Origin: Modestobacter lapidis
Lineage (GTDB): Bacteria > Actinomycetota > Actinomycetes > Mycobacteriales > Geodermatophilaceae
Length of the DNA: 64,000 bases
Direction of reading: 5' to 3'
Assembly (NCBI GenBank): GCA_019779905.1
Contig: JABAKE010000001.1
Span: forward strand, 62,001-126,000
Shown: positions 31,650 through 36,627 of the stretch, piece by piece
Layout: each line of letters starts with the position of its first letter
Position numbering within the stretch: position 1 is the first letter of the stretch
Program-made: the position numbers and the translations under genes
The notes under the pieces: model-generated
Seen by the model: the letters and a program-made list of their open reading frames with translations, nothing else
Database searches by the model: none
Told to the model about the DNA's origin: nothing

Positions 31650-31694
31650 GGTGGGGCGGGTGGGGCTCGAACCCACGACCCAGGGACTATGAGT
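31650..31694. repeat. attL-like direct repeat: copy of the tRNA-Met 3' half
   Basis: 45 bp matching 36552-36596 with a single mismatch (C at 31687 versus T at 36589). It reproduces the tRNA-Met sequence from its 3' end through the anticodon loop, then diverges abruptly at 31695. This is what integration into a tRNA 3' end leaves at the distal boundary. Confidence 0.85.
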
Positions 31695-33382: not shown

Positions 33383-33461
33383 GCGATCACCGGAGCGTTT
33401 GACCCGCCCGACCCGACTCCCGAGCGCCCCGTGATCGAGCGTGCGGCAGCCAGTACCAGCC

Positions 33462-33605
33462 TGTGAAGCGACCAGGAGACCGCCCGGCTGTTGCGTCCCC
33501 TGCGGGGTTCCATTGGTGTACCGACATCGATGTATGGCTCGGAGCTCCGCCCCGTGCCCGCTCGCCGCGATGTACGAATCGACCATCCGGTTGTCGTCCG
33601 GCCCT
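33462..33605. repeat. 144-bp direct repeat, left copy (IS1634 target duplication)
   Basis: Identical over 144 bp to 35374-35517 and abutting the left terminal inverted repeat of the insertion sequence at 33606. It has no recognisable coding function. The offset between copies is exactly 1912 bp. Confidence 0.9.
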
Positions 33606-33619
33606 CCTGAGTTCGGTCA
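33606..33619. repeat. Left terminal inverted repeat of the IS
   Basis: CCTGAGTTCGGTCA matches the reverse complement of 35360-35373 (CCTGAGTTTGGTCA) at 13 of 14 bases. The inner three bases form the TGA stop codon of the transposase on the minus strand. Confidence 0.85.
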
Positions 33620-35263
33620 TTTCGTTAGTGCCTGAGGTTCCGGGCCGGTGAGTGCGTCGATGATCGCCTGGCGGTCGCGATCGATCTGGGGCGGGAGCGT
33701 GGCGGTGGTGCCGTTGATCGCGATGGTCGCTGAGCGCAGGGGCCGGAGCTGACGGATCACGTTGCGGACCGCCAGACCGGTGCGGTTCTGCACGGTGCGG
33801 GCCACGGCAAGAGCGGTGAACACGATGGTCAGGTGCGCTTCGATCGCGTCCCTGGTGCGCACGAACATGGGCCGGGCGGCCAGGTCGGTCTTGCTCATCC
33901 GGAAGGACTGCTCCACGTGCCACAGGTCGTGGTAGGAGCTGATGACCTCGCTCCGGGCCATGATCGAGGCCGGGATGTTGGTGACGTAGCCCTTGAGCCC
34001 GACCAGTCGCCGGGCGCGGTCCAGGGCCGCCTGGTCCATGCGATGCCCGTCGCCTGTGGCCTTGACGAACCGCGGGGTCCGCGCGGCCTTCTGGCCGTCG
34101 ATGACCGCACGGGCCCGGTCCTCCTGGGCGGTGAGCGTCCGGTTGTCCCGCGCCGCTCGCTTGGCCGAGTAGGCCCACACCGCCCGCCACGAGCCCGTGT
34201 GCTGGTCAGGGTTCCAGACCGGTTCGGCGCGCAGCGCCTGGTCGTTGTCGCGGTTGCGTCCGGTTCTGGGGGTGAGGGTGTCGATGATCTGTCCGTCGGC
34301 GAAGGCGTCCCCGTGCCAATGGAAGTGGGATTCCAGGTCGATCGGGGCTTTCGTCACCCGGGACCCGACGATGAAGCGCAGGTTCGCCTCGTCCAGCTCG
34401 CGCAGGTTCTTCGCCGAGAGCATGCCGGCGTCGGCGACGATGACCATGTCGGCCAGACCGTGACGGGTCTGGAACTGCTTCACGATCGGGACGATGGTGG
34501 CCGTTTCGGCCTGGTTTCCTTCGAAGCAGCCGATCTCCAGCGGAAAGCCATGGCGGTCCACCAGTAGGCCGACGACGATCTGCGGGTCGACCCGGCGTTC
34601 CTTGGAGTAGCCGACCTTGCGCAGGTCGTCTTCCTTCTCGGCCTCGAAGTACAACGTGGTCACGTCGTAGAGGCACAGCGAGACGTCTCCGCTGCTCGAC
34701 GCGTGGTCGAAGCACAAGGCGGCGACCTTGTCGCGGTAGGTGCCCTGGTGCGCGCGGGTCAGGGTGCGGCGCATCGTCCTCTCACTCGCCGGCTTGCCCC
34801 CGAGATCGGTGAGCACCCGGCCGGTGTCCAGGATCGAGGTCGGCTCCACCAGCCGGGCGATCATCAGGTCCTGGAAGACCTCGTCGGCCAGCGCGTCGAA
34901 TCCCAGGCTGGTGAACACTCCGGCGAGCACGTCGTAGAGCACTCGCGAGGCCGTCGCCACGACTCGCGGCGCAGCGACCACCGGGCGCTCCCGCGTCGGG
35001 AGAGCTGGCTCCTCGAAGAGGGCCGCCTCGACGGCTGGGCCGATCAGCGACGCCTGCACAGTCATCGGCTCGACGCCGAGGTCGAGCTCACCCTGCCCAG
35101 GATCGGCCAACAGTTCGCGCGCCCGTTCCATCAGCAGGCCGAGCTCGGCCTCGGTGTGCGCCGAGCCCACATGCGCGACGATCCGCCGCCGGCCCTTCAC
35201 CGACTCGGCGATCTGTACGGCCGTCGCCCCCGACGCCGTCCGCACCCGCCGAATCCAGGCCAC
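33617..35263 (-). CDS. IS1634-family DDE transposase
   Basis: 548 residues from ATG at 35263, apparently full length. The N-terminal DNA-binding region starts MAWIRRVRTASGATAVQIAES. The catalytic core has the first Asp in LYDVTTLYFEAE, the second Asp in MVIVADAGMLSA and the Glu in LWHVEQSFRMSKTDL, the IS4-superfamily arrangement with a long insertion before Glu. It mobilises the 1768-bp element. The stop codon lies inside the left inverted repeat. No frameshift or premature stop is seen, so it may still be active. Confidence 0.93.
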   Translation of the reverse strand: MAWIRRVRTASGATAVQIAESVKGRRRIVAHVGSAHTEAELGLLMERARELLADPGQGELDLGVEPMTVQASLIGPAVEAALFEEPALPTRERPVVAAPRVVATASRVLYDVLAGVFTSLGFDALADEVFQDLMIARLVEPTSILDTGRVLTDLGGKPASERTMRRTLTRAHQGTYRDKVAALCFDHASSSGDVSLCLYDVTTLYFEAEKEDDLRKVGYSKERRVDPQIVVGLLVDRHGFPLEIGCFEGNQAETATIVPIVKQFQTRHGLADMVIVADAGMLSAKNLRELDEANLRFIVGSRVTKAPIDLESHFHWHGDAFADGQIIDTLTPRTGRNRDNDQALRAEPVWNPDQHTGSWRAVWAYSAKRAARDNRTLTAQEDRARAVIDGQKAARTPRFVKATGDGHRMDQAALDRARRLVGLKGYVTNIPASIMARSEVISSYHDLWHVEQSFRMSKTDLAARPMFVRTRDAIEAHLTIVFTALAVARTVQNRTGLAVRNVIRQLRPLRSATIAINGTTATLPPQIDRDRQAIIDALTGPEPQALTK

Positions 35264-35359
35264 CCGTCAACCGTAGGCCCCGATTAGTGCCTCAGAAGCG
35301 CCTGCCCCGAACCCATCACCCCAGGTCAGCGCGCTGCCACTCACCGATCCGCGAGGCAG

Positions 35360-35373
35360 TGACCAAACTCAGG
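35360..35373. repeat. Right terminal inverted repeat of the IS
   Basis: TGACCAAACTCAGG, the imperfect complement of the left end (one mismatch in 14). It abuts the right copy of the 144-bp repeat. Confidence 0.85.
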
Positions 35374-35517
35374 TGTGAAGCGACCAGGAGACCGCCCGGC
35401 TGTTGCGTCCCCTGCGGGGTTCCATTGGTGTACCGACATCGATGTATGGCTCGGAGCTCCGCCCCGTGCCCGCTCGCCGCGATGTACGAATCGACCATCC
35501 GGTTGTCGTCCGGCCCT
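35374..35517. repeat. 144-bp direct repeat, right copy
   Basis: Identical to 33462-33605 and directly adjacent to the right inverted repeat. One of the two copies would have been present before insertion. Confidence 0.9.
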
Positions 35518-35559
35518 TATCTCGTTCCAGACCGCCGCTGTATGGCGCTCACCCTCGAC

Positions 35560-35874
35560 TCAGCCGATGTCGTCCAATAGCGGCGCCAACTGGTTATTGA
35601 CGATGTCGCGGATCATGTCCGCGTTGACGCGAAAGTATTCGTGGACAACTACGTTGCGGAGACCAGCGATCGAGTTCCAAGGCGTGTCCGCGTGCTTCCG
35701 CTTGAAGTCTTCGGGCAGGGACTTCACTGCCTCACCGACAACCGCAAGGTTGCGAAGTACGGCGTCATAGGCCATCGAGCCGAGTTCCGCCGAGTCGAGA
35801 TAGTCGCGGTAGGCGATACAACGCCCGATGGCGATCCGGATGTCCGCCAGGCGCTCCGCGTCCGAGCGGCTCAC
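35560..35874 (-). CDS. HepT-like HEPN-domain toxin (DUF86)
   Basis: 104 residues from GTG at 35874, overlapping the antitoxin stop (GTGA, 35871-35874). Four-helix HEPN fold with the catalytic RNase motif R-X4-H-X-Y: Arg73, His78 and Tyr80 in GLRNVVVHEYF. HepT toxins are ribonucleases controlled by MntA, which in characterised pairs modifies the HepT tyrosine with AMP. Here the conserved Tyr is present, so the same mechanism is possible. It is located near the right end of the island, where it may stabilise it. Confidence 0.88.
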   Translation of the reverse strand: MSRSDAERLADIRIAIGRCIAYRDYLDSAELGSMAYDAVLRNLAVVGEAVKSLPEDFKRKHADTPWNSIAGLRNVVVHEYFRVNADMIRDIVNNQLAPLLDDIG

Positions 35875-36194
35875 ACTGCCACCGCGTCTGCGAAGGCGGT
35901 GGCCGAGACCTCGTCGCGCATGAGCGTTGCCGCCACGACATCGACTCGGACGCCCAGGAGCGCGCTCAGTTCCTCGGCGAGCCCGGCTACACGCAGAAGC
36001 TCGTTCCCGGCTCCTGGAGCCAAGTCGACCAGAAGATCCAGATCGCTGTCTTCGTGAGCGTCGCCTCGGGCCACTGATCCAAACAGGCGTGGGTTGCTGG
36101 CGCCGTACCGCCCCAGCATCTCCGCAACGCGACTCCGCTGCCCCGTAAGGACAGCACGAAGCCGCAGCGTCGCGGCGGTCGGCTCGCTCCCCAT
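35871..36194 (-). CDS. MntA-like minimal nucleotidyltransferase antitoxin
   Basis: 107 residues from ATG at 36194. The nucleotidyltransferase motif G-S-X10-D-X-D is complete: Gly39-Ser40 in FGSVARGDAHEDSDLD with Asp51 and Asp53. A third acidic residue lies in RVDVVAATL. It is upstream of, and overlaps, the HEPN toxin gene by 4 bp, the standard order for MntA-HepT type VII modules in which the antitoxin inactivates the toxin by AMPylation. The longer upstream reading frame has no family support. Confidence 0.88.
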   Translation of the reverse strand: MGSEPTAATLRLRAVLTGQRSRVAEMLGRYGASNPRLFGSVARGDAHEDSDLDLLVDLAPGAGNELLRVAGLAEELSALLGVRVDVVAATLMRDEVSATAFADAVAV

Positions 36195-36550
36195 AGCTCA
36201 AGGGTACGAGAGCCGCGCGGCACCGCTCTTGTCGAGATCCGCAGCTGGGTCGTCCAGGGCAGCGACTCGGCAGGCTCTGTGCTGGTCGGGCACTGCAGGA
36301 CGAGATGCGCATAGGGCGCCGCGAAGTGGCCAATGGCCGTCTCCGGACAGCGAGGCCGGCCGGCTCGTGGCGGCGCTGCTCACCGGCCAACTCGGCGGAC
36401 AAGCGCCACGGCGCTCCTCGCGGCGGGCGACCCGCGCCGCCTCGGCGGTCGCTTGATGGCCGGGCAGGTCGGTACGACCGATATCAGTCCCACCCTGTAC
36501 GAGAGCTGTGCCAAACTCCTCGTGCGGGCCCCTTCCGGCATATGGCCTGG
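36195..36550. other. 356-bp right end of the island with no recognised gene
   Basis: No frame here gives a sequence I recognise. It presumably carries the promoter of the mntA-hepT pair (minus strand, upstream of 36194). There is no integrase or excisionase, which would be usual next to a tRNA attachment site. Confidence 0.5.
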
Positions 36551-36627
36551 TGGTGGGGCGGGTGGGGCTCGAACCCACGACCCAGGGATTATGAGTCCCA
36601 TGCTCTGACCGGCTGAGCTACCGCCCC
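36551..36627 (-). tRNA. tRNA-Met (CAT), probably elongator
   Basis: 77 nt with an encoded CCA (36551-36553). Acceptor GGGGCGG (36621-36627) pairs with CCGCCCC (36555-36561). The D arm is GCTC/GAGC, and the anticodon loop CTCATAA gives anticodon CAT. T arm is GTGGG/CCCAC with loop TTCGAGC. The CTCATAA loop is found in both elongator Met and lysidine-type Ile2 tRNAs; overall sequence suits elongator Met better. Its 3' half is the integration site of the island. Confidence 0.9.
36552..36596. repeat. attR-like direct repeat within the intact tRNA-Met
   Basis: Partner of 31650-31694 (44 of 45 bases identical). The tRNA is kept functional because the island end restores its 3' half. Confidence 0.85.

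Follow-up and report, generated by a model that had tools for sequence, protein, structure and literature searches.

The window, a 64,000-nucleotide stretch of the Modestobacter lapidis genome, contains an IS1634-family insertion sequence (IS) located beside a MntA/HepT-like gene pair, and the best explanation of its surroundings is that this IS probably duplicated a 144-bp target by combining one canonical strand transfer with one displaced strand transfer. Most DDE elements generate a short target duplication of fixed length (2-14 bp by the figure of the first-pass annotation), as their two ends are attached to the target in a single concerted reaction. A comparison of landing sites across many relatives suggests that, in these elements, the two IS ends may join the target in two different ways.

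The element spans 1768 bp (33606..35373, minus strand) and is bounded by terminal inverted repeats that agree at 13 of 14 positions, namely CCTGAGTTCGGTCA at 33606..33619 on the transposase 3' side, and 35360..35373, with the reverse complement CCTGAGTTTGGTCA, on the transposase 5' side. Directly abutting these ends are two copies of a 144-bp sequence, one at 33462..33605 on the transposase 3' side and the other at 35374..35517 on the transposase 5' side, which are 100% identical and lie at a spacing of 1912 bp; an exact match of this length far exceeds chance. The transposase (33617..35263, minus strand) is intact, comprises 548 residues with a GTG start, and matches the NCBIfam model NF033559 "IS1634 family transposase" with an E-value of 2.1e-119 (399.7 bits against a cut-off of 100), in addition to the Pfam model DDE_Tnp_1 (PF01609; E-value 8e-13). 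In an alignment of relatives, D200 is conserved in 135 of 135 rows, and D278 and E451 in 135 of 136 rows each; we assign these three residues as a candidate DDE triad, further Asp/Glu columns being conserved as well. The exact repeats, the element with its inverted ends and the full IS1634-type transposase had all been reported in the first-pass annotation, and all were reproduced. Typical members of the family measure 1500-2000 bp and end in C-----YT (PMC2266710), which agrees with the size of the present element and with CCTGAGTT at both of its ends. The element is apparently an intact IS1634-family (IS1549-like) copy inserted beside the MntA/HepT-like pair, and it is one more case of an already known kind of IS.

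A query composed of the left flank and the repeat was searched against 23 genomes of the genus, among them that of the window. In its own genome, the query matched both copies on C90 and a third place on contig 138 (locus L087); the other genomes gave only two 33-bp matches, in two genomes. L087 is an IS-free paralogous site with one 144-bp copy that continues into both flanks. For the empty-site test, the two flanks were joined around one repeat copy and aligned to the candidate site. Positions 936-1824 of this joined query matched L087 in one unbroken run from 33436 into the MntA/HepT-like genes, with 801 of 894 columns identical, and cutting the flanks to 500 bp per side left a match of 672 columns at 90.0%. 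The shared sequence includes 26 bp of left flank (33436..33461, where joined-query position 936 equals window position 33436) and a right flank that holds the MntA/HepT-like pair (35518..36236). The empty site identified for the window is a paralogue, not an empty allele; it is 90% identical and has just these 26 bp of left flank in common. Among plasmid relatives, L222 with its 147-bp repeat has a one-copy empty site on pDF02 (96.0% over 1148 columns), and L224 with its 102-bp repeat has one-copy empty sites on two plasmids (99.4% over 1056 columns and 90.3% over 831 columns). Because each empty site holds one copy, the long repeat is duplicated target in all three cases; for the window, this identity of long direct repeat and duplicated target, which marks the IS1549/IS1634 type, is given by the single-copy paralogous site.

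A search of the own genome with the 144 bp returned only C90 (twice) and contig 138. We found no IS-free site with two 144-bp copies, L087 holding one, nor were the 144 bp always part of the IS, as a relative in the same genome (L002, 72% protein identity) lacks them. The long target duplication proposed in the first-pass annotation is supported by the single-copy paralogue together with the other repeat lengths of the relatives, and since these lengths differ (11-738 bp), a long and variable target duplication is the right reading. The sole basis for calling the insertion recent is the zero divergence between the 144-bp copies, which gene conversion could likewise keep alike. For other long copies, no empty site was taken among the matches listed (12 of 19, 12 of 63, 10 of 17 and 5 of 5 records); partial leads on such sites comprise a two-piece match (H90) and partial matches H104, H105 and H107.

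L002 is the one further assembled relative in this genome of 4.78 Mb and 383 contigs, and has no flanking repeat. A search for IS relatives in the 22 other genomes of the genus gave no match. The genus search around L002 found no empty site, and dispersed repeats adjoin this copy: a 59-bp repeat on one side (L002 1427-1485) recurs at scattered places in several of the genus genomes, and a repeat of ~234 bp on the other side (L002 3284-3517) is matched 13 times in genome G020. Near the start of contigs C164, C248 and C383, stretches of 60-67 bp match the IS ends and suggest further IS copies, probably lost in assembly. The HepT-like/MntA-like pair (35560-36194, minus strand) matches PF01934 and PF01909, with scores under the NCBIfam cut-offs, and has a second copy on contig 138 (L087) at ~90% DNA identity. 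In addition, a 45-nt repeat (98%) at 31650-31694 and 36552-36596 is part of one tRNA-Met gene end (36551-36627), and its two copies bracket the IS and the MntA/HepT-like region, resembling the attachment sites of a small island. A near-identical tRNA-Met-end sequence lies beside the paralogue (L087 1722-1767), and ARAGORN found no tRNA gene in L087.

Relatives were collected from four sources: the best 80 of 252 loci from a genome-collection scan; class and order samples of 394, 397 and 396 genomes, with up to three candidates scored per genome; copies in 16, 18 and 16 selected genomes, up to 30 loci each, plus chosen stretches; and plasmids, where 118 records matched, 21 regions were taken and further copies were drawn from ten of those records. 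E-value thresholds varied by search from 1e-20 to 1e-100, and many of the source sequences are draft assemblies. One relative turned up in viral contigs. The start set consisted of 338 copies that covered 330 aa or more of the query; 150 of them were unique and usable, both ends being recognisable and the flank measuring 30 bp or more. Of the 188 copies dropped, 93 were duplicates as judged by 25+25-bp flanks, 73 lacked convincing paired ends, 15 had a flank under 30 bp and 7 had weak ends and no repeat. Since copies lacking an end were excluded, imprecise joining is under-sampled. Duplicated IS ends seen in L055 (5552-5690) and L058 (3769-3906) were rejected as scaffold joins on account of an N and an overlap of 135 bp; both loci were retained as 5-bp copies, using the outer end.

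End-less copies flanked by 60 bp or more on each side were re-checked (65 lines, in which some copies recur), and 42 showed an end-like pattern on one side only. Abutting or near-abutting repeats were present in L042 (29 bp), L158 (39 bp), L249 (29 bp) and L040 (105 bp, with extra DNA on one side), and also in Mycoplasmopsis copies and in loci overlapping the G633 cluster and L064; none of the repeats from this re-check entered the counts. At L299 (G633 C1:1849500-1858700), three IS1634-family copies lie within ~5 kb, one of which has a 91-bp repeat. On a Mycoplasmopsis gallopavonis replicon, L190 (the same copy as L209), a relative 23% identical in its aligned part, has an abutting repeat of 341 bp if exact and 398 bp with one mismatch, and a further IS1634-family copy, L217, has an abutting repeat of 109 bp; both stand outside the counts.

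Repeats abutting both ends measured at least 9 bp in 80 of the 150 copies and 5-8 bp in 25 (exactly 5 bp in 22), and were absent from 45, so that 80 of the 105 copies with a duplication have one of at least 9 bp. The 80 long duplications range from 11 to 738 bp, with a median of 92 and quartiles of 51 and 146, and just one length falls between 9 and 19 bp. The long lengths agree with a lognormal distribution (KS p 0.96) and do not reject a shifted exponential (p 0.45); no helical periodicity was detected for periods of 10-11 among lengths below 260 (Rayleigh p 0.61-0.99). An earlier set of 93 usable copies gave the same picture.

Further comparison of near-identical copies revealed both modes within one element. 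Clusters at ≥97% nucleotide identity, some of which span genomes, mix lengths of 5, 5, 72, 85 and 96 bp plus one copy without repeat; 5, 64, 128 and 365; 5, 5 and 322; 5, 172 and 629; 6, 75 and 239; and 5 and 94. Even identical transposases are found with different outcomes, such as 322 bp at L054 versus 5 bp at L055, and 72 bp at L305 versus 5 bp at L304. Repeat length thus varies among the copies of several relatives, the window element itself being represented by one assembled copy only. Because the same elements also give ordinary 5-bp duplications, the long duplication is one of two outcomes; the long duplication described in the first-pass annotation recurs in the relatives, but the reading given there has to be amended to that extent. 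On a FastTree tree of 136 of the 150 transposases (14 with fewer than 430 aa left out; the program gave long-branch warnings), the short and long states need 16 changes by raw count. One transposase clade has only 5-bp duplications, in 7 of 7 copies (L229, L355, L335, L336, L337, L339 and L340).

The 22 duplications of exactly 5 bp resemble TCNGA: all 22 carry C at the second position, and 20 each carry a pyrimidine (T or C) at the first, G at the fourth and a purine (A or G) at the fifth. We scored the five bases adjoining each IS end against this motif as matches out of four. Among the 80 long copies, at least 3/4 was reached by 19 left joints (24%) and 22 right joints (27.5%), compared to ~5% at shifted positions. 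Either joint reached this score in 39 copies and both joints in 2, which is marginally low against the 5.2 expected (P = 0.049). The left and right scores are anticorrelated (r = -0.49), with none of 20000 permutations as low (P < 5e-5), and remain so with one copy per IS sequence (r = -0.48, n=66). Controls shifted by 1-10 bases gave r from -0.29 to +0.09, so that one of the ten, at shift 7, was negative as well (-0.29). Only 1 of the 80 long copies has G as the second base on both sides, where ~11 would be expected (Fisher P = 1.6e-7). When two joint types were modelled, one of each kind per insertion, the fit was better than for all 300 re-pairings; the type other than the TCNGA-like one carries G at position 2 in ~74%. 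In long duplications, the two joints differ in sequence.

The window's own copy alone departs from this asymmetry in its strongest form, being the one long copy with G at position 2 on both sides: its left joint, TGTGA (3/4), is the outward reading on the transposase 5' side, and its right joint is AGGGC (1/4). No preference for either IS end was apparent: among the 76 copies whose context sufficed, the model called the left joint specific in 32 and the right one in 43, and repeat lengths are similar whichever joint is called specific. The G+C content of the duplicated DNA gave no signal and is like that of the flanks.

We propose, reading all steps from finished products, that the transposase complex would pick a TCNGA-like site, to which one IS end would be joined as usual. 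For the second IS end, the partner position 5 nt off would be passed over in favour of a different, less selective position, often with G at the second base, lying tens to hundreds of bp further on the opposite strand and on the duplicating side. The DNA between the joints would be opened. Displacement synthesis may do this, starting at the target 3'-OH that the first joining releases and that points into the duplicating side; filling in of both single strands would then produce the long repeat. The more specific form of this proposal, that integration is asymmetric, with one canonical TCNGA-like joint and one G-at-second-base joint 11-738 bp away and always on the duplicating side, and that the same transposase switches to a concerted 5-bp mode, has in our judgement about an even chance of being right. 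Deletion, recombination between copies and decay are candidate causes of the 45 no-repeat copies.

These 45 copies bear most directly on an alternative in which the excised element undergoes two fully uncoupled strand transfers that may lie in either direction and yield duplications or deletions, the no-repeat copies then being the deletions. Their share of the 150 usable copies and their frequent TCNGA-like joints (left 38%, right 44%) speak for such a scheme. Their joint scores, however, are not anticorrelated (r = +0.12 versus -0.49 in the long copies; 3 of 45 have G as the second base on both sides), which makes them unlike the same events with opposite sign, and recombination between copies accounts for them equally well. 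Plasmid empty sites for three no-repeat copies (L191, L188 and L187) were absent among the matches listed (12 of 14, 12 of 28 and 10 of 33 records). We regard uncoupled transfer as unlikely, and give still less credit to the idea that the second end is captured in lagging-strand single-stranded gaps at replication forks, which would set the repeat length. Lengths of tens to hundreds of nt without helical periodicity would suit such gaps, but the direction of the repeat relative to the fork splits into 9 and 16 when called by the model (25 of 27 copies, P ~0.23) and into 10 and 12 when called by the simple score (22 of 27), neither far from even. In this comparison, which covered 11 chromosomes, dnaA was used as the origin and the terminus was assumed to lie opposite, and the repeat direction was taken from the TCNGA-like joint.

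A transposase-like motif at one joint and its absence from the other would also be expected if the transposase inserted one end and host end joining or template switching joined the other. This is very improbable in view of the exact IS ends, a point weakened by the selection of copies with two intact ends, of the rarity of microhomology of at least 2 bases in long copies (9 and 6 of 79 joints), and of the other joint's own preference for G at position 2. Flanking repeats would likewise arise if the 144 bp were a pre-existing tandem duplication with the IS exactly between its copies, or part of a compound element. The single-copy empty sites of the three tested cases, that of the window being a paralogue, rule this out for practical purposes; copies of one IS differ in repeat length, and both L002 and the own-genome search with the 144 bp argue against it as well, so that we give it hardly any credence.

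In the accessible part of its text, De Palmenaer et al. 2008 (PMC2266710) list the IS1634 family with AT-rich duplications of 5-6 bp, set IS1549 and IS1634 together with long variable duplications of 8-514 bp, and state that a mechanistic model for the latter had not yet been proposed. The window with its 144 bp departs from the typical length, as do the relatives, exactly 5 bp being found in 22 of 150, and the 5-bp duplications of our survey resemble TCNGA, in contrast to the AT-rich ones listed. We do not treat a 5-6 bp duplication as family-defining, because the same source exempts IS1634 and IS1549. IS1549 of Mycobacterium smegmatis, like the window element, is actinobacterial and of the same family with long variable direct repeats (PMC2266710); the long target duplication of the actinobacterial example claimed in the first-pass annotation holds, but it is not the first such case. 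A phage-resistance study (PMC10066036), as far as its text is accessible, describes a spontaneous laboratory insertion of IS1549 with a 13-bp duplication, which differs from the window element set beside it by description, falls between the short and long modes, and counts against the two-mode picture. IS1634 of Mycoplasma mycoides subsp. mycoides, the family namesake, shares the long variable duplications (PMC2266710), but comes from a distant host and was compared by description. The accessible parts of PMC1798306, PMC11004492, PMC12274833, PMC12338722 and PMC8115904 give no duplication lengths. No later mechanistic model or report of joint asymmetry was found in open-access papers, most subscription papers lying outside the search.

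Altogether, the survey reveals long duplication in many actinobacterial relatives, alternating with 5 bp within one element and accompanied by two kinds of joint. At tens to hundreds of bp, such a duplication can also include a promoter or the end of a gene. The asymmetry of the joints provides a lead on an open mechanistic question, and gives a concrete prediction that can be tested.
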